Assembly: GCA_963575745.1 (NCBI GenBank)
Contig: CAUYUJ010022392.1
Coordinates: 450,676 to 514,675, forward strand
Direction of reading: 5' to 3'
Length of the DNA stretch: 64,000 bases
DNA from: Prorocentrum cordatum
Taxonomy: Eukaryota; Sar; Dinophyceae; Prorocentrales; Prorocentraceae
The notes below the pieces were generated by a model, which did not search any database, was not told the DNA's origin, and saw only the letters and a program-made list of their open reading frames with translations. A program made the translations under genes and the position numbers. How positions within the stretch are numbered: position 1 is the first letter of the stretch; each line of letters starts with the position of its first letter. Of this stretch, positions 2,209 to 24,405 are shown one piece after another.

Positions 2209-3669
2209 ATGGCGTTCCCCTGGCCGTACCCCCATATCCAACGTTCATCCGCAGCCTCTGCTCCGCGAGGCTCGTCCGAAGTGTCGCCGCCTCGCGGTGC
2301 TTCTCAGCCTGCGCCGCCTCGCGGTGCTTCTCAGCCTGCGGAGGAAGGTGGACAGACGCCTGGTTCTGGCGCTGTGCAGCCTGCGTCTTTCACGGTCGCC
2401 TCGTTCAATTTCGGGTTCGAGCAGGGCATGATGACTGGTAAGCAGGCGGCCACTCACTGCGCTAACTTCGGAAGGGTGTGCGCCACGATAGTGGAGACCG
2501 CTGATGCTGATATTGTCTGTGGCTGCGAGGTCGGTGCGTTCCGTGAAGGCTTTCGCCGAGCAGGGATCAACGTGACAGAGATCCTCAGTAAGCCTTTCGG
2601 TGATGGCATTCGCTTCTCGGAGGTCGACAACTACTTGACTCTCTGGGGCTTCCGCGGTGCTTCTCAGCCTGCGGAACTGACTCTGTGCGAAGACAGCAAA
2701 GTTTACAGGCCTCCTAGCGGCCGAGAGATTGATGCTGTTATTTCACATTTTGAGGTGAACAAACCAGGCCATGACAAGTTCCACGTGGTGATCGCCAACA
2801 TGCACATCGTGTGCGGCAAGAAACCGCCGACCATCCAGACTCGAAAGCGGACAGTTCGCCATCTCCGCTTGCACCTGGACTGCATGGCTCAGATTCTCAA
2901 TGCTTCGGAGCCGCACGTGCCAGTCGTTCTGCTTGTAGTCGGCGACGACAACCTGACTTTCCAGGAGGCGCGGGAGGCTTACCAGCGCCAGCAGAACGAC
3001 GAGAAGCTCTGGGAGGTCCATGCCACTCCGGCCGACCTCAAAGGCGACCACGTCGCGGTCTGCGGAGCAGTCGCCCGTTTCTGCTCCATTGCCGTTGGCG
3101 CGTCTTTTACGGATCGTGGCATGCGCAACGACGCACACGATGCGGTGGCGGTTGTGCTCACTCTCCCTGGTGCTATTCAGCCTGGGGAGAGCAAGAGGCG
3201 GAAGATTGTCGTCGAAAACGTCTCCGACGCCGACGTCAGCGTACAGGCGGACGCCGAGTCTTCTGTGCATTGGGATCGGTCGCCGAGTTCTACTCCTCCG
3301 CTTTCACCGACTTCACCGGGTGATCCCGACTACGTCGAGGATGTCGTTCAAAATCGCGCGAACGACTTGCACAGGGAGCTGAGGCAGCTTTGGGACGAAA
3401 GGTACGACGAGGAGTACGATCCGAAAGTCCTCATCATCTCAGTCTCTTGCTTTTCAAAAAGAGGAAGTCCACGGAGCCAGCGGACACTGATCCAGCTGGC
3501 GCTCCTCAGCCTGGCTCGGAATATGACACGGCCTTTGCGTCTCAGGAGGAGACTGGCCGAGCCATTCTCTCTGTCCTTAAGCTTCGACATGACTTTCTGC
3601 GGAGCAAGAACATCGACGACATGCGCTACGTTCTCACGGAGCCTGAGCGCCAGGAATTGGTCAGAGTAG
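2209..3669 (+). CDS. EEP-fold (endonuclease/exonuclease/phosphatase) protein
   Basis: This frame encodes a protein with the EEP signature order. A Pro/Ala-rich leader (residues about 1-60) carries two in-frame GASQPA repeats. It is followed by SFNFG, then DIVCGCEVG (candidate metal-binding Glu), ANMHIV (NxH-like), VVGDDNLT (GDxN-like), and near residue 305 NDAHDAVAV, matching the terminal SDH-type catalytic His. The fold acts on phosphodiester bonds, and Helentrons carry such nucleases. A third GASQPA copy sits inside the domain near residue 150. The start is ATG 2209, the first Met after the tandem array. After about 3430 the frame loses protein character, while the frame at 3390-4430 continues plausibly. 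The two were probably joined by a -1 frameshift around AAAAA 3456-3461, a tiny intron, or a mutation. Binding residues are inferred by motif only. Confidence 0.65.
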   Translation: MAFPWPYPHIQRSSAASAPRGSSEVSPPRGASQPAPPRGASQPAEEGGQTPGSGAVQPASFTVASFNFGFEQGMMTGKQAATHCANFGRVCATIVETADADIVCGCEVGAFREGFRRAGINVTEILSKPFGDGIRFSEVDNYLTLWGFRGASQPAELTLCEDSKVYRPPSGREIDAVISHFEVNKPGHDKFHVVIANMHIVCGKKPPTIQTRKRTVRHLRLHLDCMAQILNASEPHVPVVLLVVGDDNLTFQEAREAYQRQQNDEKLWEVHATPADLKGDHVAVCGAVARFCSIAVGASFTDRGMRNDAHDAVAVVLTLPGAIQPGESKRRKIVVENVSDADVSVQADAESSVHWDRSPSSTPPLSPTSPGDPDYVEDVVQNRANDLHRELRQLWDERYDEEYDPKVLIISVSCFSKRGSPRSQRTLIQLALLSLARNMTRPLRLRRRLAEPFSLSLSFDMTFCGARTSTTCATFSRSLSARNWSE

Positions 3670-4430
3670 CTCGCGACCAGTACGAGCAGTCGCGGCAGCA
3701 GCGTGCGCTTCAGGAACGGGATGTCGAAAAGGGAAAAGCGAGAGGCAAGTCTGCGCCACAAGGGGGCCATGCGGTTCCGCAGGGTCCTAACAAAGGGCCA
3801 GGCGGTAAGAAAGGTTCTCACGGTGCTTCTCAGCCTGCGGGAAAAGGTGGCCAGGCCAAGGGTGCAGGTCTGGGTAGCGTCGCCAAGTTTGTGAAAGACC
3901 AGAAGCGTAAGCGGTGGCATCGCCATTTGCAACGTGTGGCCGGTACCAAACAGATCTGGGAGGTGCTGGCCTTCTCAGGGCGCTTCGACGTTGATTGGCT
4001 AACGCAAGCGTTGCAAGCTGATCACAGTGAGGGCCGTGATGCAGCAGTTCCCGAGGAAGCTCTGCGGGAACAGCGGCGCCGTCTGCACCACCAGAAGGCC
4101 GAAGCCATCGCGCGCTACAACGAGGGGGAGCGGCTTTCCCGCCATCGCGAAGAGGTCCGTCGTGTCGGCGCTCTTCCGTCTGCCCAGGCTGGCCAGCCAA
4201 AGCCGAACTTCACGCGCAGGCAGCTGGACGTGTTGCAGATGTTTGAGAGCGGAGAGCTGCTTCAAATCCGCAACCAAGCGATTCTGGCGTTGGGGCACGG
4301 CCGTCTGCGCAGGGCCGGAGGCGACTACCTTGACATCGGCGGCAGCACGGGCGGTGGCTCCAGGCGCATCATCGATTCTTGGCAGCCGCCGGACTGGCGT
4401 GACTTCCTCCAAGACGATCAGGACATCTGA
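3390..4430 (+). CDS. Basic continuation/companion of the EEP protein
   Basis: This 346-codon frame overlaps the end of the preceding frame. Real coding character seems to begin near 3455 (KKRKSTEPAD). It carries the element's repeat in frame twice (GAPQPG, GASQPA), a Lys/Gly-rich linker (about residues 115-170) and a helical, charged segment (about 175-290) with many Arg, Glu and Gln. It ends SWQPPDWRDFLQDDQDI. I recognise no domain. Its position, and the lack of a leader of its own, suggest it is the C-terminal half of the EEP protein separated by a -1 frame change. A separate DNA-binding protein is possible. The first Met of the frame (3390) lies inside the upstream reading frame and is probably not a real start. 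Confidence 0.55.
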   Translation: MGRKVRRGVRSESPHHLSLLLFKKRKSTEPADTDPAGAPQPGSEYDTAFASQEETGRAILSVLKLRHDFLRSKNIDDMRYVLTEPERQELVRVARDQYEQSRQQRALQERDVEKGKARGKSAPQGGHAVPQGPNKGPGGKKGSHGASQPAGKGGQAKGAGLGSVAKFVKDQKRKRWHRHLQRVAGTKQIWEVLAFSGRFDVDWLTQALQADHSEGRDAAVPEEALREQRRRLHHQKAEAIARYNEGERLSRHREEVRRVGALPSAQAGQPKPNFTRRQLDVLQMFESGELLQIRNQAILALGHGRLRRAGGDYLDIGGSTGGGSRRIIDSWQPPDWRDFLQDDQDI

Positions 4431-5643
4431 GTTTTGCAAGTCTCCCTGCCCGCGGTGCTTCTCAGCCTGCGGTCTGCCGCTCTCCAGCTGCGGTCTCGAG
4501 CAGTAGTGTTCGAAAGCATGCGAGTTCCTGCGGTGCTTCTCAGCCTGCAGGTTTCGCAGCTTGCGCTCTGCAGTACAAGTGCTTTTCAGCATGCGACATC
4601 CTGCGGTGCTTCTCAGCCTGCAGGGTTCGCAGCGTGCGGTTTGCAATGCATTCCTTTTCAGTATGCGAGTTCCTGCGGTGTTTCTCAGGCTGCAGGGCTC
4701 CGAGGCTCTTCGCTTCGATGCCAATGTTTTCAGACACCGTAGCTCCGTTCCGTAAACATCTTCCAAGAGCCGCTCGCAACCTTTTGCAGCTGGCGGTCTG
4801 CAGACGTAGTCTGTCTCAGCATGCGAGCTCCCGCACGCTTCGCCGGCTTTTGCTGCGCGGACAATTTTCTCACACACGTCAGCGCCGTTTGTAGGCGTCA
4901 GAAAAACATGTATACATTCACGAAGGGCTCAGTCTGTATATCGTCACATCATTACATACGCAGTCGTCGAACACATCGGTGTACATTCAGTTGATAACAG
5001 TGTTCTGATGGGTACGCTTCGTTCTAAAAACGTTGATAGCAGTGTCTCGTTTGCGGACAACTCATTGTATATCAACTCACTGATGCCGAGTTTCCTTTCA
5101 CCATAAGTGAATGCATACCAGTGTATGTTGGTTACTACAAATGTGGGTTCCTACAACCGACTTCATGATCGCTATCATCATCGCAGATTTATTTCACTCA
5201 TCCTCATTACCATGACTGGTTCACGTTGGCCTGCGGTGCTTCTCAGCCTGCAGTTCCTTTCGTTACACTGTAGTTGAATCCGGTCATGGCAGTGACTCGT
5301 TTAAAGACAACTTTAGTATTGGTGGAAGTGTCGATCGCAGCGTTTCTTTTAAATTATACAAGCGTTGATAGCAGTGTCTCGTTTGTGGACAACTCATTAT
5401 ATATCAACTCATTCATACAGAGTTTCCTTTTCGCAGCAAGTGAATGCACAGCAGTGTATCTTCATTACTGGCCCCCACTCCATTATCACTATCATCATCA
5501 ACGATTTCCTGCACGCGTGTGCGCGGCGGTCGCCAGAAGTGTATAGTTTGCAGAGACTTCTCGTATTGATAGCCATGGGTCACTTCAGACTGAAATCATT
5601 TGTGATCTTCTTTTATTGGAAGTTGAATCGGTTGATGGCAGTG
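4431..5643 (+). other. Intergenic leader region rich in the element's private repeats
   Basis: No gene seen. It holds four or five copies of the 19-bp repeat (4454, 4532, 4604, about 4674, 5235) and stem-loop cassettes around 5031 and 5361. A block (ATGACTGGTTCACGTTGGCC, about 5212-5235) recurs at about 13045 upstream of the Rep gene. Short open frames here are built from repeats. Confidence 0.6.
5031..5097 (+). repeat. Stem-loop cassette GTTGATA...TATCAAC (first of about six)
   Basis: The unit has GTTGATAGCAGTGTCTCGTT, then TCATTGTATATCAACTC and often TGATACCGAGTTTCCTTT. GTTGATA and TATCAAC form a 7-bp perfect inverted repeat with a loop of about 30 nt. Related copies lie near 5361, 5751, 8139, 12787 and 12909, always between genes. 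Partial copies without the right arm are near 5710, 8098 and 24000-24080, and the left half is the seed of the 16.4-17.9 kb minisatellite. Confidence 0.7.
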
Positions 5644-6068
5644 CCTCGTTTAAACTCCACATTGGTATTGCTAGTAGTGTCAATGCCAGCGTTTCTTTTT
5701 AATTGTGCAAGCGTTGATAGCAGTGTCTCGTTTGTGGTTAGTTATAACAGCGTTGATAGCAGTGTCTCGTTTGCGGACACCTCATTGTACATCAACTCGC
5801 TGATACCGGGTTTCCTATCATCACCATCATCATCATCCTTAACCTCCTCGTAGCCATTTTGCTTAGAGCTGTCCTGTTCTGTACATGCCTTGCGCCGTGT
5901 GACCACGTGGCGCGGTGCTTCTCAGCCTGCGTGGTTCTTCCTGGTGCTCCTCGGTGTAGTAGCCATGGTGAAGAAATTCCTTTTGAAAACGAAAAAAGGT
6001 GTGACCAGGAGGTTTTTACCCGCGGTCGTTCCCACCATGGAGAAGAAAGACTTGGCCACCCCGAGGAG
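5644..6068 (+). repeat. 425-bp segmental duplication, copy 1
   Basis: This matches 8032-8456 at a constant offset of 2388 bp with no indels. I count five substitutions by eye. The unit contains stem-loop cassettes, an ATCATCACCATCATC tract, a spliced-leader-like sequence, a 19-bp repeat and the first codons of the gene starting at 5965. Confidence 0.9.
5847..5868 (+). promoter_or_regulatory. Spliced-leader-like sequence upstream of the 5965 gene
   Basis: CGTAGCCATTTTGCTTAGAG resembles the 22-nt dinoflagellate spliced leader, which runs CCGTAGCCATTTTGG then CTCAAG. It ends 96 nt before the ATG at 5965. Relict leaders in genomic DNA are known from dinoflagellate mRNA recycling. Whether this one is a relict, a mutated functional leader, or chance is open, but a second and a third copy upstream of two other genes argue against chance. 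Confidence 0.55.
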
Positions 6069-7149
6069 CAATGTCACAATGCCAGCACGCGGCAAGGCAT
6101 CGCCCCCGCCACCCCCGGCCCCGTGCGATGGCCCGTGGGAGATTCTGCCGGATCCGCCCGCACCGACTCCTCAGCCAGGTGTCGACGTGGTCTTTGAGCA
6201 GGCTCACCTCGAAGACATCCGCCGTACACCAGGGATGGGCGGCAAGACCGCCTGCCAGTGGCAGCGCGCGCTGCGCGCCGAGTGCATTGTCAACAACTTG
6301 TCGTTCAAAGACGTAACAAACGACCCGTCCTACGACTGGAAGCAACTGCTTCGGTCTGCCGCTCCGGGTTTCGCTGAGCGCATAATCGGGCAGGGCATCG
6401 CCCAGGTTCTCTTTCGCATCATCGAGACAGAGCGCGACCCTAACTACTCCAACACGGATGGCCACGGCAGGCACTTCTTCGAGTTCCGTCGTGCAGACGG
6501 TTCAGCCATGCGCCTGCATTACCATAAGAACGGCCGACCCGATGAGCCCACCTATGTCGGTCCACCACGCGCCGTTGCTCAGCCTGCCGTGCCTGAGCCT
6601 GGCGCTGCTCAGCCTCATGTTCCTCGTGGCGGCGCTGCTCAGACTGCCGTGCCTGACGGTGGCGCTGCTCAGCCTGCCGAGACTGGCGGTGATGCCCCAC
6701 TGCTCTTCACACAGGAGCACCTGCAAGAGGCAGCCTGCTCGCGCCAGATTGTGGGCCGCGACGAAGCCAGCGCCGCTCTCCAATCGCTGTTGCACTACCA
6801 CCATGGCGAGACTGCCCCAGGTGCTGTTGACATCACCGATGGCTCAGCATTTGACTGGCTTCGATGGGTGGCACATATCGAAGGTGCGCGCGACGTCATC
6901 CGCAATGGCGTCCACAGGGTCTACGCTGTCCGCTGGAATCCGCACTGGGCTCCAGAGGCCGTCTTCTGCTACGGCAACAACACGTACAGCACACTGGTGC
7001 CCCGCAACACGCGATACACAGGCTCGTGGAGCCACGCGCGAATTGTGACTCACCGGAACGCCAATTGGGTGACCGAGCCGTTGCTATCTGCGGCCCCTGT
7101 GGCAGCTACGCCGTGGCTGGTGTTGCGGGATCAAATAACCTGGGAGTGA
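5965..7149 (+). CDS. Unknown protein with an internally duplicated domain
   Basis: I chose ATG 5965 (MVKKFLLKTKKG) because upstream codons lie in repeat and leader sequence; this gives 394 residues. Residues about 1-35 are basic, followed by a Pro-rich linker (KASPPPPPAP). Two similar segments of about 110 residues follow, each starting FxQxHL and containing a D(V/I)T...(Y/F)DW core and a later I-x-x-G motif. Residues about 75-190 and 245-360 align this way. The linker between them has four AAQPA-type copies of the private repeat. No family is recognised, and no signal peptide or membrane segment is seen. The gene lies between the EEP gene and its leader-sharing neighbour at 8353. Function unknown. 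Confidence 0.65.
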   Translation: MVKKFLLKTKKGVTRRFLPAVVPTMEKKDLATPRSNVTMPARGKASPPPPPAPCDGPWEILPDPPAPTPQPGVDVVFEQAHLEDIRRTPGMGGKTACQWQRALRAECIVNNLSFKDVTNDPSYDWKQLLRSAAPGFAERIIGQGIAQVLFRIIETERDPNYSNTDGHGRHFFEFRRADGSAMRLHYHKNGRPDEPTYVGPPRAVAQPAVPEPGAAQPHVPRGGAAQTAVPDGGAAQPAETGGDAPLLFTQEHLQEAACSRQIVGRDEASAALQSLLHYHHGETAPGAVDITDGSAFDWLRWVAHIEGARDVIRNGVHRVYAVRWNPHWAPEAVFCYGNNTYSTLVPRNTRYTGSWSHARIVTHRNANWVTEPLLSAAPVAATPWLVLRDQITWE

Positions 7150-8031
7150 TCTCTGGCAAACGAGATGTGGTGCTTCTCAGCCTGCACTCATGTGACACGC
7201 AATGCCGTGCCCTGCAATCGCGTGGTGCTTCTCAGCCTGCACTCGCGCGGTGCTTCTCAGCCTGCGCCTCCTCGATGCTAGCCTGAGCCTCAGCCTGCAC
7301 TCGCGCGGTCGCCGTGCTTCTCAGCCTGCGACCTTCCGCGGTGCTTCTCAGCCTGCAGGTTGTGCCGGCTGTCCGCTTCACACGCCGCTCCTCAGTGCGC
7401 TCCTCTTCCGTTTGCGACATGTCTTCGAAGTGTTGGTTGGGAGCCGAGAAGGACAGGGAAAAAATCAAACTAGCGCGGTCATCATCCCATCGTCGTCCTC
7501 AATCATCGCATCAACATCATCAATGGTTTCGCCGAGCACTTGTCCGATGTGGCGGCGGCCATACCCACGGCCGACCCACTGATTCCTTCTCCAAGGCATC
7601 CGCCGTATTTGACTGTTACCACTACACCCACTGCAACTACATTTCACTGTTACCACTACTGCCATCCACCCACTCCAACTATACTTCACTTCGCTGTTAC
7701 CACCACACCCACTACAACTACACTTCACTCGTTCACTCCCGCCAAATACAACTACTACTTCACTGTTACCACTACTACCATCAGTACTACTTTTACTGCT
7801 ACTACTTCCCGCCTAGTCGTAGTAGTACTCGTACGCCTCTCCTCCTCCTTCTACTCGTACGCCTCTCCTCCTCCTTTTTCTTCTCTCATCGACGTCAGAA
7901 CCCTTGCCTCCTATGACGTCCTCCGCTGGCCTGGGTGGTCTACTCAGGTCGCGGAGGGGGATAGGGGGGGGGTCGTTGCCATGGCTGGTTCCCTCGAATG
8001 GACGACGGAGACGGGGGGGTGCACCGTTCCC
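7150..8031 (+). other. Intergenic region with repeat cluster
   Basis: No gene seen. Five copies of the 19-bp repeat lie within 7169-7356. From about 7605 to 7790 there are roughly four degenerate units of about 43-75 bp built on TTCACTGTTACCACTAC and ACTACAACTACACTTCAC. A 22-bp direct repeat (ACTCGTACGCCTCTCCTCC core) follows at about 7828-7875. These frames are repeat-derived. Confidence 0.6.
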
Positions 8032-8456
8032 CCTCGTTTAAACTCCACTTTGGTATTGCTAGTAGTGTCAATGCCAGCGTTTCTTTTTAATTGTGCAAGC
8101 GTTGATAGCAGTGTCTCGTTTGTGGTTAGTTATAACAGCGTTGATAGCAGTGTCTCGTTTGCGGACACCTCATTGTACATCAACTCGCTGATACCGGGTT
8201 CCCTATCATCACCATCATCATCATCCTTAACCTCCTCGTAGCAATTTTGCTTAGAGCTGTCCTGTTCTGTACATGCCTTGCGCCGTGTGACCACGTGGCG
8301 CGGTGCTTCTCAGCCTGCGTGGTTCTTCCTGGTGCTCCTCGGCGTAGTAGCCATGGTGAAGAAATTCCTTTTGAAAACGAAAAAAGGTGTGACCAGCAGG
8401 TTTTTACCCGCGGTCGTTCCCACCATGGAGAAGAAAGACTTGGCCACCCCGAGGAG
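8032..8456 (+). repeat. 425-bp segmental duplication, copy 2
   Basis: This is the second copy of 5644-6068. It supplies the leader and first 34-35 codons of the gene starting at 8353. Downstream of 8456 the sequence is unrelated to the first copy and more AT-rich. Confidence 0.9.
8235..8256 (+). promoter_or_regulatory. Spliced-leader-like sequence upstream of the 8353 gene
   Basis: This is the duplicated copy of 5847-5868 with one change (GTAGCAATTTTGC). It lies the same distance from its ATG. It adds little independent evidence because it came with the duplication. Confidence 0.45.
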
Positions 8457-9825
8457 TATTTCGTTTTCGTTGGGTTCTGCTTTGAGACATCTCCATACTT
8501 ATTTAATTGTTTCGGGAATGTTGTTCTGCGGGATTCTGGTTCATTACAGTTTTTTTGTTGTGTGTTCATTTTTCGGAAACATCGTTAATTACTTGGAAAC
8601 TCCCGGGACAGCTTTCGACAGAGGGGTTGACCGAAATCATTTTGGACAACTGCTCATTATCTATTTCGGATTGCGGATTTCAGGTCGCCGCCGTGCTGCG
8701 AGGAGAACGACTAGGCGCTCCAAGTACAATCGTTCTGTGAAAGTGTCGCTGCAGTTCAATGTCATATCTTCATTGTTACTGGGCCTAAAGACAGCAAGGA
8801 ACAGGTATGAGCGGTGCTTGCTCAGAGATGCCGTCGCTCGCTCCCGCATGCGGAGCTTTGCTCCGCCTTCGAACTCAGAAGTTCCATTCGCATGTGGGGC
8901 ATGTGCAGCTAAGCAAACGCGTGATTGCATATGCTCGGGCATAGCATCAATGCACGGGTGTGTGAATGACAAGCTCTTGTCCGAATTCGTTTCAGGTGTT
9001 CGATCGCCAGACAACCCTGTATATCAACCATATGACCCTGACGATCAACGCAAATTACAGGAAACTCTGGAGCATGGTGCCGCGGTGCTTCTCAGCCTGC
9101 GAGGTTCGCGCAGCATGAGTGTTCTGGTACGTTCCCGCCACCTTGTGCGCATGATTTACATTGCTGCCATGACGGGCTTGGCAGCGACCGTGGATGCTGC
9201 AGCGCCATACCTTGCTCAGAACGATTTCAGAGGCCTCAGGCGCTACCTTGATACTGCGGAGGTAGTGCACCGTGGCGGCCAACATCCTGGGAAGATTTGT
9301 CGCGGCAACCTGGCAGTGCAGCTTGTTCAGTTCATGCGCGTCGCGGGGAACAAGATGGCGCGTTTGCTCTCGTCGTGCACGGCTTCCCTGCAGACTGTTC
9401 GGCGGCGACAGGTGCTTCTCAGTCTTGCCAAACTAGTCTTCCAACTCGCGAACAAGCGCGGATTCGAGGTCGATGGCTGTGGAGCATACAAATGCAAGCG
9501 AATTCTGGAAATCACCTTGCTGGCTGGGCTCAGTTCCAAACTGACATTGCCACACTTGCTGCCTGGTGACCTTTGCGCTTTGTCTGGTTCGTGGCCGGTT
9601 CCAAGCGGATCGCGCCTTGGCTTGAGAAAAATCATGCCCGGCATGACTTCGAAGATTCGGGAGCAACAGGCTTTGAAAGCGATCTCTTTGACACTCGGCT
9701 CCGGCGGTAATGGCAAGTCGGTACCTGTTTGCACTATATCTGCAATGTTGTGCTTTTGGAACGAGCATAAGAATAACGTCCTGCAGTGGGTGCAGGAGTG
9801 GGTGCCCAAGATGCGGCCGCACTAG
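8353..9825 (+). CDS. Unknown protein with borrowed N-terminus and hydrophobic segment
   Basis: The ATG at 8353 gives about 490 residues. The first 34 or so residues are the same basic leader as the 5965 gene, acquired by the 425-bp duplication. Residues about 38-85 are hydrophobic (LIVSGMLFCGILVHYSFF) and could form one or two membrane segments. The middle has a Cys-containing stretch (CGACAAKQTRDCIC). The private repeat occurs in a different reading frame here (AVLLSLRGS near residue 245, and QVLLSLAK near 355). A GSGGNGKS stretch near residue 455 resembles a P-loop but lacks context. I recognise no family. The composition change at 8456 suggests the duplication fused a new leader to an existing frame; a degenerate gene is also possible. 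Confidence 0.45.
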   Translation: MVKKFLLKTKKGVTSRFLPAVVPTMEKKDLATPRSISFSLGSALRHLHTYLIVSGMLFCGILVHYSFFVVCSFFGNIVNYLETPGTAFDRGVDRNHFGQLLIIYFGLRISGRRRAARRTTRRSKYNRSVKVSLQFNVISSLLLGLKTARNRYERCLLRDAVARSRMRSFAPPSNSEVPFACGACAAKQTRDCICSGIASMHGCVNDKLLSEFVSGVRSPDNPVYQPYDPDDQRKLQETLEHGAAVLLSLRGSRSMSVLVRSRHLVRMIYIAAMTGLAATVDAAAPYLAQNDFRGLRRYLDTAEVVHRGGQHPGKICRGNLAVQLVQFMRVAGNKMARLLSSCTASLQTVRRRQVLLSLAKLVFQLANKRGFEVDGCGAYKCKRILEITLLAGLSSKLTLPHLLPGDLCALSGSWPVPSGSRLGLRKIMPGMTSKIREQQALKAISLTLGSGGNGKSVPVCTISAMLCFWNEHKNNVLQWVQEWVPKMRPH

Positions 9826-10039
9826 GCAGCGAGTTCCTCAAGCCTTGTTCGTTTGCCTGCGGTGCTTCTCAGCCTGCCATGCTGCTCAGTCTGCGTGTAT
9901 GCTCATGAACAGCATTCTCTCCTGTGGCCACATCTCGATCTTCCTTAAACATGCAGGTGCTGATGGGGCAGCGCCGATCCGTATTGACTTGGAAAAGGAC
10001 AAAAAAGATTGGAAAGAGTGAGGACACATCAGTGCGTTT

Positions 10040-10080
10040 GGCAACCTAAACACAGACTGTCTGTCTGTGCTTAAGTTGCC
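10040..10080 (+). other. 18-bp imperfect hairpin upstream of the RPA-like gene
   Basis: GGCAACCTAAACACAGAC and GTCTGTGCTTAAGTTGCC pair over 18 positions with two mismatches around a 5-nt loop. It lies about 315 nt before the next ATG and about 215 nt after the previous stop. It could be a transcript end, a processing signal or a relic of a transposon terminus. Confidence 0.5.
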
Positions 10081-10393
10081 AAGCGCAGACTGTCTGTGAC
10101 ATCACAAAACACTACAGTACACCACACAGCACACACATCACATCCATCCAGTCACGCACACATACAGCAACACGCTTTCTCGACTCCACAGGGGGGGTGC
10201 TTCGTGGAGGCATCACTTGTAACTTTGAAATTCTGTAATCATTGCCGTTCTGGTTCAAAGAACTTGGATTGCAGGAGTTCGAGGCAAAAGCGAGCCTTGT
10301 CCGCATCCGCTCACCCAGTCTCACCGTGCCGTGCACGGTGCTTCTCAGCCTGTGTCACTGTGCGCTCCACGGTGATCCTCCGGGTGAGCTACC

Positions 10394-12286: not shown

Positions 12287-12297
12287 GCTTTCTCCTG
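12267..12297 (+). terminator. Perfect 12-bp hairpin around the stop codon of the RPA-like gene
   Basis: CAGGAGAAAGCT pairs with AGCTTTCTCCTG around a 7-nt loop TGAGGTG, and the TGA stop (12284-12286) starts in the loop. It could act in 3'-end formation, readthrough control or as a DNA hairpin. The role is inference; the structure is seen directly. Confidence 0.6.
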
Positions 12298-12709
12298 TCT
12301 TGTCAGCGATGCTTCTCAGCTTGCTGGACATGGCAAGCGTCTTTGTCCTGCGCCTTGCGGGATGCCAACTAGGTTTGCCTCAAACATATCGTTTGGTAGT
12401 TTCGTTGTTTATGCGGTGCTTCTCAGCCTGCACTATTTACTGTTGTGGCGTCTGGTGCAAGAGTAGTGTTTGCGGCCTGCATTCCTCCTCAGCCTGCCCT
12501 GGTTCCCTTGAGAGTGCCTGCACAGAGTTTCGGTCTGTGCTCAGGTTGCCCAACGGATTGATTCACGTTCGCCTGCGGTCCTTCTCAGCCTGCACTTCCT
12601 TTGCTACAAGCGCCTGTTCTGCAGTCGTTCAAAGTGTCTCGTTTACAGAGAATTTCCGTGTTTGAGAAAAAACATTTCTGCATGTGTTCCATTGGAATCT
12701 AAATCAGGT

Positions 12710-12956
12710 CATGGCCGTGCTTCATTGCAAGACAACCCCCATGTTCGTAGCAGTGTCGATATCAGACGTTCGTTCAGTTATAAAAGCGTTGATAGCAGTG
12801 TCTCGTTTTCGGACGCCTCATTGTATATCAACTCTGGCTGTGCCTCATTTCAAGACACCTCCCATGTGCGTAGCAGTGTCGGTATCAGAGGTTCCTCCAG
12901 TTATAAAAGCGTTGATAGCAGTGTCTCGTTTTCGGACACCTCATTGTATATCAACT
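12710..12956 (+). repeat. Tandem duplication of about 123 bp with stem-loop cassettes
   Basis: Two consecutive units share GTAGCAGTGTCG, then TTATAAAAGCGTTGATAGC and TCATTGTATATCAACTC. They form part of the leader of the Rep gene. The surrounding 12287-13200 otherwise holds 19-bp repeats (12415, about 12570, 13066) and CAT-rich sequence, with no gene seen. Confidence 0.7.
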
Positions 12957-13208
12957 CATTGATACCGAGTTTCCTTTCAGCATACGTCAATGCATAGCAG
13001 TTTATCTTACTTACTGGAACCGCCTCCATCTTCACTATCATCACGACTGGTTCACGTTGGCCTGCGGTGCTTCTCAGCCTGCAGATCTTTTGCGACCTCA
13101 TCATCGCCATTGATCATCATCACCATCAACATCACTGATTCACATCATCACCATCACCAACATCCTCCACAACGAATTTCCCTCATCACCATCATCATCA
13201 TCAATGTC

Positions 13209-13230
13209 TCCGTAGCCATCTTGCCTAGAG
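13209..13230 (+). promoter_or_regulatory. Spliced-leader-like sequence upstream of the Rep gene
   Basis: TCCGTAGCCATCTTGCCTAG (plus AG) matches the 22-nt dinoflagellate spliced leader at 18 of 22 positions by hand count, including its first 11 bases. It is followed by CTATCCT, as the other two copies are followed by CTGTCCT, and preceded by the same CATCACCATCATC tract. It ends 43 nt before the ATG at 13274. Confidence 0.6.
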
Positions 13231-13273
13231 CTATCCTTACAAAGGAACTTTCCAGCACCCACTGCACACAGTA

Positions 13274-16200: not shown

Positions 16201-16420
16201 GGCGCTGGAGAAAGCGCAAGCAGGAGCAGACGCGTGCAGGGCTGTGGGCCCGCACTCTTTATCGGTGCCTACGCAGAAACCCTTGAGTTCTTTCGACAGC
16301 AGGTCTTGGCCGGCGTGCTACACAGAGTTCTGGTTCGGGGACGGCGCGCCGAACCTCGAGCGGGAGCGGCCCATGCTGTTCGAACAGGTCTTCCCCAGGA
16401 ATACTACTTATGCTACCAGT
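13274..16420 (+). CDS. Rep-helicase, N-terminal part (helical repeats, zinc fingers, DUF6570-like)
   Basis: Four tandem repeats of about 50 residues (about 38-325) share the pattern V(K/R)xFGRxP...AExxLA...PxxxxxELQxLE, a helical repeat type common in dinoflagellate proteins. A C2H2-like finger (CQLCDCDF then HKQCNH, about 430-455) and a CVVC region (about 515) follow. From about residue 670 comes CWDCLNDLCAKKPKMPLNAL, then NDNWIG and KGISGNTILFAQ, matching the DUF6570-type region that precedes the Rep domain in Helitron proteins. Private repeats occur in linkers (GAPQPA, GASQPA, GALQPV). The frame stays open into the minisatellite to a stop at 16921, but protein character ends near 16410 (ERPMLFEQVFPRNT). 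The frame of 17924-23692 is the same, so this is the first part of one split gene. Confidence 0.75.
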
Positions 16421-17935
16421 GTTGATAGAGGAGTCGATCCAGTGATAGCAGTGTGTCGTTTGGACCTACATGTGTTGATAGCAGTGTCTCGTTTGGACCT
16501 ACATCCATTGATCGCAGTGTCTTGTTTGTACCTACGTGCGTTGATAGCAGTGTCTCGTTTGGACCTACATGTGTTGATAACAGTGTTTCGTTTGGATCTA
16601 CACCCACTGATACCACTGTCTCGTTTGGACCTACATGTGTCGATAGCAGTATCTCGTTTGGACCTACACATGTTGATAGCAGTGTCTCGTTTGGACCTAC
16701 ATCCATTGAAAGCACTGTTCCGTTTGAACCTACATGTGTTGATAGCAGTGTCTCGTTTGGACTTACATGTGTTGATAGCAGTGTCTCGTTTGGACATACA
16801 TCGATTGATAACAAGGTTGCGTTTGGGCAGCGTCTCCTCTGGATCTACATGTGTTGTTAGCAGTGTCTCGTTTGGACCTACATGTGTTGATAGCAGTCTC
16901 CTTTGGACCTACATCCATTGATAGCAGTGTCTTGTTTGTACCTACATGCGTTGATAGCAGTGTCTCGTTTGGACCTACACGTGTTGATAGCAGGGTTTCG
17001 TTTGGATCTACACCCACTGATCCCATGGTCTCGTTTGGACCTACAAGTGTTGTTCGCAGTGTTGCGTTTTGACCTACATGTGTTGATAGCAGTGTCTCGT
17101 TTGGACCTACATCCATTGATGGCAATGTCTCGTTTGTACCTACATGCGTTGATAGCAGTGTCTCGTTTGGACCTACATGTGTTGATAGCAGTGTCTCGTT
17201 TGGACCTACATCCATTGATAGCACTGTTCCGTTTGGACCTACATGCGTTGATGGCAGTGTCTCGTTTGGACCTACATGTGTTGATAGCAGTGTCGCGTTT
17301 GGATCTACACCCACTGATCCCATTGTCTCGTTTGGACCTACATGTGTTGTTCGCAGTGTTGCGTTTTGACCTACGCGCGTTGATAGCAGTGTCTCGTTTG
17401 GACCTACATCCATTGATGGCAGTGTCTCGTTTGTACCTACATGCGTTGATAGCAGTGTCTCGTTTGGACCTACATATGTGGATAACAGTGTCTCGTTTGA
17501 ACCTACATCCATTGATAGCACTGTTCCGTTTGGACCTACATGCGTTGATGGCAGTGTCTCGTTTGGACCTACATGTGTTGATAGCAGTGTCTCGTTTGGA
17601 CATACATCAATTGATAGCAGTGTTGCGTTTGAACCTACATGTACATGTGTTGATAGCAGGGTCTCGTTCGGACTCACATCCATTGATAGCAGTGTCTTGT
17701 TGGTACCTACGCGCGTTGATAGCAGTGTCTCGTTTGGACCTACATGTGTTGATAGCAGTGTCTCGTTTGGACCTACATCCATTGATCGCACTGTTCCGTT
17801 TGGACCTACATGCGTTGATAGCAGTGTCTCGTTTGGACCTACATGTGTTGATAGCAGTGTCTCGTTTGGACCTACATCCATTGAACGCAAGGTTGCGTTT
17901 GGACCTACATGTCTTCATAGCAGTGTCACGTTTCT
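16413..17935 (+). repeat. 33-bp minisatellite, about 46 units, splitting the Rep-helicase gene
   Basis: The unit is GTTGATAGCAGTGTCTCG plus TTTGGACCTACATGT, with variants CCATTGATAGC and ACACCCACTGATACC. Higher-order blocks of several units recur. Because 33 is a multiple of 3, long frames stay open on both strands (for example DSSVSFGPT, NETLLSTHVGP). The frame of the flanking gene is broken by TAG at 16919-16921 and by further stops. A GT-AG excision of 16421-17923 removes 1503 nt (3 x 501) and joins the flanks in frame, so the array may be an intron. An array that has broken the gene is the alternative. Confidence 0.85.
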
Positions 17936-20900
17936 TCGTCCTTCGAGGTCGCACGGCGCCTCATCAACCTGGAGGAGCTCGAGTACTCTCTCGCGACCGA
18001 CGAGGAGCCCTACGAGGCAGCCTGCCAGAGCCGCTTCAGCTCGCCAGAGATCATTGCTGTCTTCGGCGACGTGATCCGCCGGCTGCGGCTCTTGAAAGGC
18101 ACTCGGGCGGCGATTGGCAGGAAAGGCTTCGGCACTGACCTCCAGATCCTGTCAGAGGCGTCGGCGGAGGATTTCATGGAGGCGCTAAACATCGCTAAGC
18201 CGGCCGACTGCATCGGCTCCGCCATTTCACGCCCGGGCATGCCTGCCAAGGTCAAGACTGCCCTCAGGACGTTGCTACTTAGCACTTCCGATGTCCCTGG
18301 CACGGAGGGGCGGAAAACCGCACTCCGCTTCGACGGGCACGGCAACAACCTCAAGTTCGGCGCGGCCAGCTTCTTCGTCACACCGAACTTCGCAGACACG
18401 TACAGCCCGTTGGTCCTCCAGCTTCACGAAGGGCCCGGAAAGCGGAGCCACTTAGACATTCGCGGGGGCGCGGTTGGCGCGGTGGCCAGAGCCGGCGGCG
18501 CTTCTCAGCCTGCTGGCCCTGACCTGCGGAGTCCAGCTCCGACCATGCCTTCTCTGGAGCGGATGCACCAGATAGTGGCAGCAGACCCGCGGGCGCAGGC
18601 CAAGTTCTTCCTGTTGATGACGGAGCTTCACTACCGCTACATCATCGGCTTAGAGCGCCTGTTTGTTGGCCGCACAACGCTAGCCCGACAGGCGGTGACA
18701 ACGGAGGACGACGTGGCAGCGTCTCTGCAGCCGTGCGTGGCCCCAGGCACCACTGATGTGCAAGCGCCTTTCGAAGCGCAGGGTCGGGGCTTCACGCGCG
18801 GCCACGGCAAAGGCCACAGCGTCATCGGGCCTACGATGGCGTGGCTGCGGTCGGCAGTGGTCGGAGGCCTGCGCACCGCCGCTCGGGAGCTGCGAACTGC
18901 GCTTCTTTCCACCGCGGAGACCGTGCAGTACGAAGCTGCCAACGAGCCTGCACGGCAGCTGGGGCTTCCTGACGTCGCGCCAGAGCCTTTCACAGCCAGG
19001 CAGCAACGACAGAGCCGCATGGACGGAGGGGAAGAGGAGGACGGCACCCTGCGCGACGAGGTGCCTCTCGGCCCGCCAGTGGAGCAGCCGCACCTGGTGG
19101 AGGAGCGAGCGCGGGCAGCCGCAGAGAACCGGATGCCTGCAATCGGCGCTGCAGCGTACCGGGGCCTCCCGCTCACAGGAGCCTTTCAGTCTACGTTTCC
19201 AAGCTACCGCCAACGAACTAGCTTCGGGCAGCTAGGTGGCGCTCCTCAGCCTGCCATGGCAGCCAGCCATGCTAGCCTCTTCCAGACGAACGAGGATGGA
19301 GCGATTCAGGAAGTCCTCAAGCCCGATGGCTCGCCGGCTTCGGTCGAGGAGATTACCGCAGATGCGGAGGCTTGGGCGGTAGCGTTTAGCCATGACTTCT
19401 TTTGCAACATCTGCTCCAACCACGAGCACGACTGCACCGAGACGTGCGTCAAGTACGTCAAGAAGAAGCTCGAGGCCAAAGAGAGTCTGCGCTCGAACAG
19501 AACCCCGTCGTGCCGCTTCTGGTTCTTTCGCATCCAGCAGCTATGTCTAGCAGGCCGCACCAAGCGAGTGCGTCGGCGCGGCAAGCCTTTGGTCCGGACT
19601 CCGTTCATCGACTTCTCTGATGACCGCAACCAGCGGTGCCGCTGCCAGGTCAAACGCGACCAGCCGTTCAGGAGCTCCAGCAACGACGTCTCTCAAGTGA
19701 CCAGCCGGTGCAACGTGGATTTCCAGTTCTTGATGTGCGCGCCTGACGAGTCTGCCGAGGCAGCAAAAGTGCTTCAGCCTGGTGGTGCTCCTCAGCCTGC
19801 CCAGGACGGGCTGCCTGCGGCCGCCCCAGCTCAGCTGGCCAAGCGCAGAAGGCTTACCAAGAAAACGGCCAGCATGAAGAACCCAGAGTCGGCAATCGCA
19901 TTGCGCTCATCCAAACAACTCGGCGGCCGCAAAAAGTGGCTCTACGGTTGTGGCTCCTTGCATCCGACAGATGCATCTGTCGTGGAGAGCTTCCAAGCTG
20001 CTTTCCAGAAGGCTTTCTCCATGGACTTCTACATCACGAAGTACCAGGGCAAGATGATGGAGTCCATGACGCCGCTCTTCCAGTCTATGCTCACCGGCAT
20101 GCAGCGTCTGGAGCAGCAGGAGAGGGACGAGAAGGAGGAGGAAGCCCGGAAGGTGCTCAGTGAGGGCGGCGCTGATGGCGAGGACCAGACGCTGGCCAAA
20201 CGGGGCCGGACGCGCGAGGATCTCGCTCGCCGCGCTCGGCGGGTCTGTATCCGCCTGGCGTCGATGGCGAACCGGTGCTTCTGGCTCTCCACGACGGAGG
20301 TGGCCGTGCATATCCTCACAGGCGGCGACTGCCTCCAGTCGCACCACAATGTGCGGCTCTTCACGAGACAACTACAGTGGGCCTGCCAGCAGTGCAAACG
20401 CTTGCTAAACCATGAAGGTTCGGGCGAGGAGACGCATAATGATCAGGTGCCAATACAAGCAGTCCGCATCCAGATCCCTGACGCCGACAACGAGGAGGAG
20501 GACGCAGCAGGTGACACCAGCGGTGCTCCTCAGCCTCCTGGAGACACTCCTGCTGGTGATGAGCAAGGTGGCGGTGCGGAGTGCGAGGACATGCACGTGT
20601 GCACCACCAGCACGAACACGGCCGACGACTACGCCCACAGAGGCCCTCGCCTGCAGACCATGCCGTACTACGTCTACAGGATGTACGTCCGGCGAGTCCT
20701 GAAGCCGAGCCGGGTCAAAGCTTCTGGACCGCGATTCTTCGCCTTCGAGAGCCACTACGTCTTGGCTCCGCGGTACATGCAGGAGGTCCGGTTGACACGG
20801 AGTGACGTCCCCACCATCGATGGCTTCCAGTGCCCGACATGGGCACAGGACCCCGAGCAGAACTCGCTCTTCAAGGCCCTCCTCTTCACGCCTTGGGCGT

Positions 20901-23692
20901 GCGAGTGTCCCCTCTCTTGTGGCTGCGTTACTCAGTACAGCCATATGCTGAGGAACTGCGACTGCCCCGCCGTGCGCCCATACTCGTTCGAGCGGGCGTG
21001 GCGGCTTCGGTGCGCGGAGATCCACGTGTTGGCAGCGCGCGCAGACTCCAGGAGCCGCCTGGCCCGCAAAAGGCTCGTGCTCGCGGACACGACCCTCTTC
21101 TCCGAGCTGAAAGAGCCCCGGGCGAACCTCGAGGAGGGCGAGCTGGTGCTCCTCAGCCTAGCGCACTTCGCAAGGTCCCAGCTGGCGCGGCGCATGCCAG
21201 CGGAGGCGGCACGGCGCATCCTTGCCTTCAGTGACCACCACTGCCGGTGGCACGAGGAACAGTGCACCCTGGCGGAGTTCTGCGCGACCGTGGCGCGAGA
21301 CGTGCTGGCGCGCGTGGACCTCGCGGCGGAGGCGCGGGTTAAGCCTCGGCCAGCAACGACTGCACACCTCGAGGCGGATGAAGACTCCGCGAGCGATGCC
21401 GAAGGGCTCAAGGGGCGAGTCCCGCTGGAGCTCGTTGACGTGGGTGGAGGCGGCGGCAGCGACGTAGAGGAGGACGTGGAGGACGCCGAGATTACCGAGA
21501 TCTCCCGGTTTCCGCTGCGGGACCACGTCAGAGCAACCGAGCTGGCCCTACAGCAAGACCAACTGCAGCGCTTGGACCAGAAGGGCCGCCTCAGCTACGC
21601 CGATAAGCAGTTGAAGAATCTCGACCGAGCGTACAGCGGCATGCTGCAGCCAAGCTTTGCACTGCCAGCCAGCAGCGGCGCGCGGGAACATCAGGGCACG
21701 CGGCTGGACGAGACCTTTTCTGACATGCTCGCCCTACAGCGGCAAAGCATTGCGCTCCAAAAGAAGCAAGCGAGCCCGGATGGAGAGATCTTGCCCGATG
21801 CTGCGGACGACTGGCTCCCCAGCGGTGCTCCTCAGCCTGCTGCCGAGGACGCCCAACCAGAACTCGTTCCGCAGCTCTTGGCCATGCAGGGCCCGGCGGC
21901 TGTTGCGTGGAAGCTCGTCACTGATGCCCACTGCACGGAGGAGCAGATTGACGCGGTGGCGTTGTTTGCGTTGTCTCTGCAGAAACGTTTTGACGGCAGA
22001 CCAGACAAGACAACGCATCTCCTCCCCGTGGCGTCCGCGACAGGCAACCACAGAGCGATCTGGCTCGGTGGAGGCGGTGTCGGCAAGACGCGCACCCTCT
22101 CCAAAGTGGTGGAGCCGATGGCCATCACTTACTTCGGCGAGCAGGGGTACCTCGGCAAAGCGCAGTCCAACCACGCCGCACACAACCTCGGCCCGCGCGG
22201 CAGGACCATGCATTCCTCCAATGGCCTGCTCATGTCGGATTCCATGCAGACAGCCAGGCTGCGCTTGACGCCACAGACGCAGAAAAAGCTGGATCGCCTC
22301 ACAGGCACACTCGGCGTCGACGTGATCGATGAGCTGGGTGCTGTGCCGGGGCCTTTGCTGCATGCAGATGCACTGCGCACGACCTACGGCAGGGCGTTGC
22401 GCTACAACCTGGACCCCACGAAGTACATGCGCCCGCAGGAGACGTGGGGACGCATGCCTGTGAAGATCTTGTGCGGGGACTTCTACCAGTTGCCGCCAGT
22501 CCCCGCCACCGCTTCCCTGCTGGCGCCTCACGCGGGCCAATCCTACGAACACCAACAGGGTAGGAAGTTGCTCGCCGACATCGAGTACGTCATCGATTTC
22601 GTGCAGATGCAGCGCTTTACAGACCCGTTGCAACTCGAGGTTCTCCACGCCATGAGAACTCCAGGCGGAAAAAAGATCTCTGACGAGAGCTGGCAGGCGA
22701 TCGTCAAAACAGAGGTCGTTAGCTCTAGCGGTGCTGCTCAGCCTGCTGCCAGCAGCAGCGAAGCCGCTCAGCCACCTCAGTGGGACCCTCGGTTGCGTGC
22801 AGCACGAGGCTGGTACGAGTCGGCCTATGAGTGGCGCATCGTCTCTTACGCCATGCATGCACAGGCCAAGCTTGATGCGCACGATGCTGGCCAGCTGCTC
22901 TTTTACGTCCCAGCAATCGACAGACCAGCTGCGCGCCTCGCGAAGCCTGATTTCGACGAGATGCGCGCGGAGCCCAACATCGGCGCTACCGCAAAAATGC
23001 CGGGGCTGCTGCCGCTCTTCGTTGGCATGGAGGTCATCCTGACAGAATCCGTCTTGCCGCCGAAGTATGTCCGTGGCGCGCCAGGCAAAGTGGTAGGCAT
23101 AGAGCTGCACGTTCTGGAGCCTCCGGTGGAGGGCCGCCCGTCCATTGTCTCGGACGGTGTGGTCGTACTCTACTACATGCCAAAGGCCGTCTATGTCAAG
23201 ATCGATGACAGCGATGAACTTTTCTTGAAGGCCGCGCCGGTGACAGCTGGCAGTGCTTCTCAGCCTGCCGGCCCCGACCTGCGCGGAGTGCTCGCGATCA
23301 CCCCGCAGGCGCGCCCCTGGAAGTTCAAAGCGAAGACAGGTGGCCCGGCCATCGCGGTGTCCAGGACGCAGTTGACCGTGCTGCCCAAAAAGCAGGGGAC
23401 TCTGCATGGCGTCCAGGGCAAGACGACGGACCCAGGCTTCATCGTGCACTGGACGTTTCCGCCAGGACTCAAGAAGGAGTCCATTTGGCTTGCCTACTAC
23501 GTCAGCCTGTCGCGCCCCAGAAGCTTCAACCAACTCTTGAGCCACGGCTTGCCTGACCGGAGCATCATCGAATCCGGCCCCCCGGAACAGATCGCCAAGG
23601 CCTTCGCCGAGCTCTTCACGGACAAGATTGCCGCGACGAAGATCGCTTGCGCGAAGGCCCGACAGCAACTGGGATGGCCTGCGCGAGCTTGA
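17924..23692 (+). CDS. Rep-helicase, Helitron Rep (HUH/Y2) and PIF1 helicase part
   Basis: Coding character resumes just after the minisatellite ([18 protein letters not shown]); the first Met is at 18071. Rep region: [35 protein letters not shown], and [17 protein letters not shown] near 18780-18820, where the usual HxH reads HGKGH. A Cys/His region ([15 protein letters not shown]) and CNVDFQFL follow, then the paired-tyrosine motif FYITKYQGK at about 20027-20050. PIF1 motifs: Walker A GGGGVGKT (about 22068), Walker [11 protein letters not shown] (about 22315), [27 protein letters not shown] and [16 protein letters not shown]. Rep would nick and join DNA in rolling-circle transposition and the helicase would unwind it. 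Private repeats lie in inter-domain linkers (about 18497, 19238, 19784, 20522, 21824, 22730, 23252). All catalytic motifs look intact, suggesting recent activity. Confidence 0.85.
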
Positions 23693-24405
23693 GGAGCCAT
23701 GAGATGCAGGTTGCGTTGTGGCGGTGCTGTTCAGTCTGTCCGTCTGCATTCGCGTGGTGCTTCTCAGCCTGCATGCGCGTGGTGCTTCTCAGCCTGCGCT
23801 CGTGTGCAGCTGTGCGCGGTGAGCCTGCACGTGTCGCGGAATGCTTTTCAGCCTGCGCGTGTCTGCAATGCTTTTCAGCCTGCACGCTTTGCAGCTTCTC
23901 CGCTTCGCACGCCGCTCCTCAGCGCGGTCCTCTGAAAAAAGGACAGTCATCATCTCATCGTCGCACTCATCATCGCACTCATCATCATCATTCATTGCCA
24001 GCGTTGATAGCAGTGTCTCCTTTTTACACGACTGCCACCATTCATAGCAGTGTCTCGTTTTGACACATTTCCAGCGTTGATAGCAGTGTCTCCTTTTTAC
24101 AGTACTTCACTGTTACCACTGTTTCATCTTTCCTGCTCTTATTGCTAATACTACTGCGAGTGTTACTGCTGCTGCATGCCTCCAGCTATGCTACTACATA
24201 TCGATGTTAGGTTGCTTTGCCGGGATAATTCAACCTTGAATCGATGATCGTGGCCCCGATCGTTCAATGTCGAATTCCGTCGGGTCCAATGGCTTTGCCG
24301 AATCCCTCGGTGCTTCCGCGTCGCAGAATTCAACCGTAAACGCCTTCGCCGGCGTCGCCGGTGCGCCAACGCAGCATGAACCTACCGTATCCGCCCCCCT
24401 TGTCA
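23693..24405 (+). other. Right-end noncoding region of the element
   Basis: It holds repeat copies at 23756 and 23781 and diverged ones (ATGCTTTTCAGCCTGC) at about 23845-23885. Three minisatellite-type units lie at about 24002-24085 (GTTGATAGCAGTGTCTCC), with TTACTGTTACCAC-like sequence after them. The last private motif is near 24085. From there to 24405 I see no gene or repeat; the right terminus probably lies in this stretch. Confidence 0.55.

Follow-up and report, generated by a model that had tools for sequence, protein, structure and literature searches.

A 19-bp repeat, GCGGTGCTTCTCAGCCTGC, occurs in about 50 copies within a single Helitron-like element of Prorocentrum cordatum, in a stretch of 64,000 nucleotides (contig CAUYUJ010022392.1, positions 450,676 to 514,675; here termed the window). 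The repeat forms a seven-pair bulged hairpin, which in the window is extended by one or two closing pairs of free sequence, and its pairing is kept by coupled changes in the DNA and, family-wide, in the encoded residues. On balance, we favor, with some reserve, the view that the hairpin provides a structural site on the sense strand in single-stranded form, probably in mRNA, which is kept by selection on pairing and has spread partly by duplication.

Copy number and orientation of the repeat

Allowing up to three mismatches, 40 matches to GCGGTGCTTCTCAGCCTGC are found in the window, all on the plus strand between positions 2,294 and 23,883 (16, 14, 5 and 5 with 0, 1, 2 and 3 mismatches, respectively). 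The number expected by chance is 0.06, and the largest count in 100 shuffles was 1. At up to five mismatches the number rises to 52 on the plus strand, all inside the element, and the only minus-strand match is located at position 290 (4 mismatches). A covariance model run over the window gives 59 matches at E ≤ 3. The 47 matches at E ≤ 0.03 are all on the plus strand and within 2293–23889; 46 of them had been used to build the model, and the new one is 11036–11066. The best match outside the element lies on the minus strand (E 0.078). Comparison of the flanking columns sharply delimits the unit at 19 bases, the hairpin measuring 19–23 nt depending on whether the closing pairs are included. 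The initial annotation, made from the sequence alone, had claimed 35–40 copies in a single orientation, distributed over coding and noncoding DNA of one element. The 40 copies counted here agree with this, 21 being situated in open reading frames (ORFs) and 19 in noncoding DNA, and the proposed confinement to the element is borne out at this locus. Nineteen further stretches of this genome (4.128 Gb in 21,875 contigs), 190 kb in total and eight of them from the window's own contig, gave no match at E < 0.8 with the model under default filters (best E 0.83). Rfam gave no match at the gathering score within window positions 1–26000. A literature search for the 13-mer core (GTGCTTCTCAGCC) and the hexapeptides retrieved no paper, and among the titles and abstract openings on Helitrons and dinoflagellates, coding repeats, palindromes and hairpins no description of such a repeat was found.

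Hairpin structure and pairing of the flanks

As RNA, GCGGTGCTTCTCAGCCTGC is folded into ((((.(((....))))))), with the pairs G1-C19, C2-G18, G3.U17, G4-C16, G6-C15, C7-G14 and U8-A13, the bulged U5 and a 4-nt loop, giving arms GCGG-(U)-GCU and AGC-CUGC. Because the bulge and the G.U pair hide the stem, the palindrome is easily overlooked, and the earlier description of the repeat as barely palindromic has to be abandoned. The stem continues into the flanks. Bases −1/+1 pair in 34 of the 40 copies (expected 16.4) and bases −2/+2 in 30 (expected 20.1), values that were reached in none of 2,000 shuffles each; CG, TA, GC and AT all occur, and from position −3 outward no clear excess is detectable in the 40 window copies. 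With one copy per flank cluster, −1/+1 pairing is formed in 17/19 cases (mean 8.0; 0/20000 shuffles). Only for the window can this free lower stem be regarded as established.

In an alignment of 46 copies, 88.2% of the stem cells are paired compared to 78.0% after shuffling (0/500), and covariation amounts to 0.325 compared to 0.138 (0/500); sliding the arms against each other leaves no more than 0.095. Diverged copies keep the stem through double changes: A1-T19 at 10335–10353, A4-T16 at 12306, T2-A18 together with A4-T16 at 11814–11832, where the copy reads DASQLT, and C1-G19 at 3167–3185, 3496–3514 and 21143–21161, the last of which also shows T2-A18. Position 3-17 is G.T in 44 of the 52 copies. 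Neither the tests of −1/+1 and −2/+2 pairing nor the double changes of the diverged copies require a folding model.

Copies within reading frames and coupled residue changes

Read in frame, the unit is xGC GGT GCT NNN CAG CCT GCx and encodes GAxQPA, with the free residue x situated in the loop. Twenty of the 21 ORF copies (≤3 mismatches) lie in this frame, in accordance with the GASQPA, GAPQPA and GAAQPA linkers reported initially; variants are 6629, reading GAAQT, and 23250, reading SASQP. The single off-frame copy, 9082–9100, is found in the putative ORF 8278–9825. A further reading, AVLLSL, had been reported for another frame. It can be recognized in the diverged main-gene copy at 21143, which reads VLLSL; nearly all other ORF copies follow the GAxQP frame. 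Within the main gene, the copies sit in variable linkers and their presence differs among close relatives. The copy at 19782–19800 (GAPQPA) falls on a 6-aa indel relative to the homolog P0003, and the homologs P0005 and P0017 (88% identity) differ by a 17-aa insertion with an 8-aa flanking duplicate. The assumption that insertion is tolerated anywhere is not supported, as the copies lie nearly always in one frame and within variable linkers. The codons fixed in the main-gene copies are GCT in 12/12 (background 0.17) and CCT in 12/12 (background 0.23). Loop position 9 is not T in 10/21 coding copies compared to 0/19 noncoding copies; the reported drift of coding copies against near-identical noncoding ones thus reflects a real difference, but one located mainly at this position.

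For the tests at the protein level, 42 homologs from records other than the window were used. The motif G(A/V)xQP occurs 124 times in these proteins compared to 2.3 times in shuffled sequences; given this recurrence and the further copies in two metagenome-bin contigs described below, the repeat is not private, as it had been called. Pairing of positions 4 and 16 predicts that a G-to-D replacement accompanies a P-to-L replacement, and the combinations GP, GL, DP and DL are observed 117, 3, 6 and 29 times (p 3e-22), some DL rows that resemble unrelated sequence being retained in the count. Taking one site per flank cluster, the numbers are 47/1/2/13 (p 1.4e-10). Pair 1-19, in turn, sets an expectation for the second codon base of each residue flanking the motif. 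This pairing is obeyed at 83 of 98 testable sites (shuffled mean 46.9, maximum 62 in 20,000), which remained of 117 after the exclusion of 19 whose next residue lacks a G-codon; Ser was counted as either codon type, and without Ser the ratio is 59/72 compared to 24.9 in shuffled data. With one site per flank cluster, 43/55 sites obey the rule (mean 24.8, maximum 37; 14 of 69 dropped). One aligned site alternates among relatives between SFGxLGGAxQPA and SFGxLGDAxQLT, and coupled switches are therefore needed; here the inner pairs 4-16 and 2-18 both switch, the latter inferred from codons. We see no reason at the level of the peptide for such coupled swaps.

Copies behind stop codons

Of the 24 copies in spacers, 19 start within 200 nt past a stop codon, where 5.3 are expected (p 4e-9). 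In all five ORFs a first copy follows the stop closely. Behind stop 4430 the distance is 22 nt and the cluster extends over 4452–4693 (cores 4452, 4530, 4603 and 4675, weak core 4576), and behind stop 7149 of gene B it is 18 nt (7167–7356; cores 7167, 7222, 7247, 7311 and 7338). Stop 9825 is followed after 34 nt by copy 9859 and the weak copy 9876 (9859–9894), stop 12286 after 20 nt by a cluster at 12306–12593 (12306, 12413, weak 12479 and 12575), and stop 23692 of the main gene after 29 nt by a cluster at 23721–23883 (23721, 23754, 23779, weak 23838 and 23865). Two of the five stops, those of gene B and of the main gene, are backed by homologs ending there. No copy of the 19-mer is present in the intron-like insertion of 1.56 kb (16388–17947) that interrupts the main gene.

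Two measures distinguish the strands. Wobble in the core appears as G.T rather than A.C on the sense strand in 16 compared to 4 cases (p 0.012), and the hairpin energy of the 40 copies is −8.8 kcal/mol in sense and −6.8 kcal/mol in antisense orientation (paired test over 52 copies, p 6e-6).

Related copies in other DNA

A scan of genome contigs matched at least 119 stretches, and among the 80 loci listed only one, L062, has more than one exact match, namely two. Seven hairpins at E < 0.01 lie on a single strand of L062, a 3.6-kb contig from a metagenome bin labelled Armatimonadetes; a second contig of this bin, L133, likewise carries seven hairpins on one strand. A pattern scan of the rest of the bin gave two single matches (control: one). 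When copies were picked by sequence only (≤6 mismatches), 19 rows were obtained on the main strand of both contigs, 12 of them with all seven core pairs, 4 with six and 3 broken, and each contig has one further row on the other strand. We infer that L062 and L133 are eukaryotic contaminants. As single exact matches, having been chosen for the 19-mer, score well with the model in any case, only contigs with several copies were counted, and the 17- and 19-mer matches in viral contigs (6 and 4, single-copy) were taken as chance.

Two ORFs of L133 on the minus strand (1914–2690 and 2933–3592) have a MASHGTAG stretch near the N-terminus in common, a shared leader before different bodies. Another part of L133 (1024–1110, minus strand) shares with the Helitron homolog P0026 a KRxRLTKKTPDP stretch beside hairpins (E 0.005). 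A weak hint is thus given that L133 may belong to a related element.

Functional interpretation

The favored reading can be formulated as follows. The hairpin, carried on the sense strand of the Helitron-like element and its relatives, would be recognized in single-stranded form, most likely within mRNAs of the element, and a protein encoded by the element or the host would bind copies along the coding region and in the clusters behind the stops. New copies would come from short insertions or from duplication and persist wherever their peptide lands in a variable linker or the copy lies in a 3' untranslated region; selection on structure would then hold them, with the GAxQP peptide as a tolerated by-product. 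Putative effects on the RNA include stability, export, translation or marking as self. A further-reaching version, which we put forward tentatively and consider rather less probable, is that a transposon family has equipped its transcripts with a hairpin tag for protein binding, inside reading frames and bundled behind stops, and has kept it over large divergence of the proteins by compensatory evolution that is directly readable in their residues; this would constitute a dispersed, multivalent self-marking system, at the level of RNA or of rolling-circle DNA, with parallels in virus packaging signals or in bacterial repetitive extragenic palindromes (REPs) and their RAYT transposases, but in a eukaryotic nuclear element.

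Several observations weigh against the favored reading. The 24 spacer copies include weak ones, and the last spacer was cut at 24100 by choice; the clusters behind the stops contain tandem copies, and three of the five stops are ORF ends without support by homology. In a context of 79 nt, the mean core-pair probability reaches at least 0.5 in 17/40 sense and 15/40 antisense copies (p 0.16 over 52). At the protein level the G.U-type state (GL, 3) is not commoner than the A.C type (DP, 6), and strand specificity is therefore without support there. The copy at 9409–9427 could pair through C1-G19, A2-T18 and G6.T15, yet RNA folding prefers another structure. The closing pair −1/+1 is present in no more than 9 of the 16 unbroken rows of L062 and L133, and only 4 of their 10 ORFs, some overlapping, have a copy 17–43 nt past the stop. 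Finally, some copies in the window lie in tandem units of 25, 27, 30 or 73 bp, and grouping by similarity of the flanks (at least 11 of 20 bases shared) places 29/40 copies in 8 groups and leaves 11 alone. Duplication with the flanks therefore accounts for part of the copies, which is allowed for by the tests with one member per cluster. Descent of all copies from duplication of larger segments, named at the outset as an outcome that would overturn the initial view, is borne out in part, duplication explaining some of the copies but not all.

The strongest competitor, which we hold possible but doubtful, is a site in single-stranded DNA: hairpins on the displaced strand would be recognized during rolling-circle replication by the HUH Rep or by a single-strand binding protein, and perhaps mobilized. 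A Helitron-type Rep bearing HUH-like and Y2 motifs is indeed encoded by the element, the bulged hairpins share one orientation, and bacterial REPs are also described behind coding regions and inside ORFs (PMC3733652). On the other hand, RNA is indicated by the clustering behind stops and by the lack of copies in the 1.56-kb intron, though this intron could be of more recent origin. A tag tetranucleotide is not seen, neither the element's ends nor a terminal hairpin copy could be located, and the HUH motif of the window protein reads RGH where 16/17 motif matches have His. Judged from the sequence, mRNA appears likelier than rolling-circle DNA, mainly because of the post-stop positions. Unlikely, in our estimation, is a selfish mini-hairpin without function, which inserts into short palindromic targets, is copied along with its flanks or becomes perfect through template switching, the structure being a by-product. 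Near-identical cores at many places, the similarity of flanks among the grouped copies and the duplicated 8 aa around the insertion that separates P0005 from P0017 would fit such behavior, and insertion into short palindromic targets would explain paired flanks that fade past two bases. Template switching, however, should erase the bulge and the G3.U17 pair, which persists as G.T in most copies, and neither the switch of inner pairs at the aligned site nor the positioning behind stops is explained.

Selection on the peptide, with GAxQP as a functional linker or cleavage motif, might account for the nearly constant frame of the ORF copies. We regard it as highly improbable, since residue x is free, noncoding copies exist and synonymous positions are fixed against codon bias; together with the flank pairing and the GAxQP/DAxQL coupling, the fixed synonymous positions contradict this explanation. 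Equally improbable is the role in trans-splicing or as a splice acceptor that the initial annotation had considered for the TTCTCAG core. Pyrimidines followed by CAG do resemble an acceptor, but the AG lies in the conserved stem, many copies are located inside conserved ORFs, and the only defined intron (16388–17947) ends in TTCGAG/GTC and holds no copy.

The repeat shows a nucleic-acid structure inside coding sequence that is held strongly enough to go with coupled replacements (G with P, D with L, and the flanking residues) in proteins of many sources, and protein databases alone provide a ready assay by which hairpins of RNA or DNA hidden in mobile elements can be detected. With this repeat, the in-frame palindromic repeats of bacteria also have a counterpart in eukaryotes, situated in an element that carries a Helitron-type Rep and for which candidate binders are testable.

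Relation to known systems

The nearest kinds are the in-frame palindromic elements of Rickettsiales and the REP elements with their RAYT. The repeat is filed under neither, because unit size, missing tag, single orientation and host differ. Palindromic repeats inserted in frame in ORFs are described for Rickettsia (RPE) and Wolbachia (WPE) (PMC3767692, PMC3733652). The window repeat is likewise a palindromic element in frame in protein genes, and the likeness to the Rickettsia elements drawn initially is apt in kind. In contrast to RPEs, which measure 100–150 bp and reside in bacterial chromosomes, the repeat is a bulged hairpin of 19–23 nt in a eukaryotic mobile element (host genome 4.13 Gb), and unlike RPE and WPE it has a single orientation and is clustered behind stop codons. 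REPs are described as imperfect hairpins of 20–40 nt, mostly downstream of coding regions and in some cases in genes, that are linked to a tyrosine transposase (PMC3733652). The window repeat, too, is an imperfect hairpin of this size in many copies, but the GTAG/CGTC tag is lacking, as the columns outside the 19-mer show no fixed tetranucleotide; pairs in opposite orientation are absent, the Rep is of the Helitron Y2 type and the host is of dinoflagellate type. RAYT transposases belong to the HUH class. A Rep is present in the element, and its mobilization of the hairpin would be an analogy only.

In mitochondrial genes of Nematomorpha, coding palindromes are reported to keep hairpin and protein coding together (PMC6649704). 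Those are long perfect inverted repeats in conserved protein parts, whereas the window contains a dispersed consensus hairpin. Iron-responsive elements and phage coat-protein sites are bulged, protein-binding RNA hairpins. As in these, upper stem, bulge and loop of the repeat are sequence-specific and the lower stem need only pair; the difference lies in the roughly 50 copies, about half of them in ORFs. DUF6570, Helitron_like_N, the Y2 motif and PIF1 are shared with Helitrons and Helentrons. Helitrons end in 5' TC and in a 3' hairpin with CTRR, and dispersed hairpins in their interior have, to our knowledge, not been described.

The host element and its genes

The element belongs with the Helitrons (Helitron-like), owing to matches to DUF6570, Helitron_like_N and PIF1 and to the match of the family profile to PIF1 structures. 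All features are on the plus strand. The ORFs 13274–16387 (exon 1) and 17948–23692 (exon 2) constitute one gene after skipping the 1,560-nt GT..AG insertion. Exon 1 encodes DUF6570 and exon 2 a weak Helitron_like_N match, the Y2 motif and a PIF1-type helicase. In the product, P0001, taken alone, DUF6570 exceeds the Pfam cut-off (E 9.5e-9) and Helitron_like_N and PIF1 stay below it; across 13 family members at E ≤ 0.001, PIF1 is detected in 7, DUF6570 in 6 and Helitron_like_N in 3. The gene has 38 homologs at 29–81% identity, and the Y2 motif FYITKYQGK is found in the window protein and in P0003. A Rep with HUH and Y2 motifs is thus fused to a PIF1-type helicase, the combination that marks a Helitron. 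Searching viral and genome contigs with the helicase profile gave no relatives. In P0001, Arg replaces the first His of the HUH-like motif, and the window copy of the helicase/Rep may for this reason be inactive.

Hairpin cores in the main gene are located at 13338–13356 and 14385–14403 (GAPQPA each), 15183–15234 (cores 15183 and 15216, GASQPA twice), 18495–18513 (GASQPA), 19236–19254 (GAPQPA; the orthologous site reads GDAxQLT in P0005, P0006 and P0010), 20520–20538 (GAPQPP), 21822–21840 (GAPQPA), 22728–22746 (GAAQPA) and 23250–23268 (SASQPA, with A3-T17). A hairpin at an old site, 16095–16113, is GALQPVADEGGR, and QPV is present in 11/13 proteins showing DEGGR there. Another core, 13064–13082, lies 210 nt upstream of the ATG. 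The copies of the main gene are spaced by 522–1047 nt with 15183 and 15216 merged (coefficient of variation 0.21; 0/20,000 random sets), and regular spacing is also seen in P0005 and P0007 (p 0.006 each). Since it is absent in P0004, P0006, P0032, P0036 and P0038, it was set aside as a general feature.

Four further ORFs precede the main gene. ORF A begins with an ATG at 2209 (first part 2209–3669) and continues in another frame at 3390–4430. Its first part has five GAxQP motifs, four of them at the copies 2294, 2321, 2654 and 3167. The cores 2294–2312 and 2321–2339 form a 27-bp tandem in frame, the flanks TTCC..GGAA pair too at 2654–2672, and CTCTCC..GGAGAG do so at 3167. The second part contains the hairpins 3496 and 3820–3838, the latter with A1/C19 unpaired. 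A 19-mer match is located in the following spacer at 5233–5251 and another at the start of the gene B ORF (5912–5930). Gene B (5890–7149; homologs P0041–P0045) includes a 30-bp tandem with cores 6629 and 6659 (6629–6677; weak core 6569). Its linker (6576–6691) contains, as in P0041–P0045, 10-aa GGAAQPAVPx units whose number varies between relatives. With a tandem of real linkers as query, only two gene-B homologs appeared at E < 1 among 7,995 candidates, such arrays being visible only in proteins of limited length.

In the putative ORF 8278–9825, 60 aa match the beginning of the gene B ORF at 98% identity, the remainder being unproven. The corresponding DNA segments, 5644–5943 and 8032–8331, are at least 300 bp long and 99% identical, and run into the starts of both frames, which by this similarity appear to share one leader; core 8300–8318 lies in the segment in common with 5912. 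The 630-aa ORF (10394–12286) is preceded by the core 10335–10353 and contains the diverged hairpins 11042–11060, recognized by the covariance model only (11036–11066, E 0.018), and 11814. For the three upstream ORFs besides gene B no real Pfam match was found, nor a PDB match for the 630-aa ORF, and no protein database search was made. A likeness of the 630-aa ORF to RPA/OB-folds is a tentative reading of our own, to which the structure model (pLDDT 31) lends no support.

The insertion 16388–17947 has GT..AG ends, is flanked by AGGTC on both sides and is made of a minisatellite; relatives read through the site uninterrupted. In these traits it resembles an introner. Its repeat of about 33 bp (TTGATAGCAGTGTCTCGTTTGGACCTACATGCG) has 57 plus-strand and no minus-strand matches in the window (23-mer, ≤6 mismatches). 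About 44 are arranged in tandem within the insertion (16443–17933) and 13 are found in spacers (5033–5753, 8102–8141, 12789–12912 and 24004–24077). Just upstream of the first ORF, a 73-bp tandem array of 5.8 copies occupies 1653–2074.

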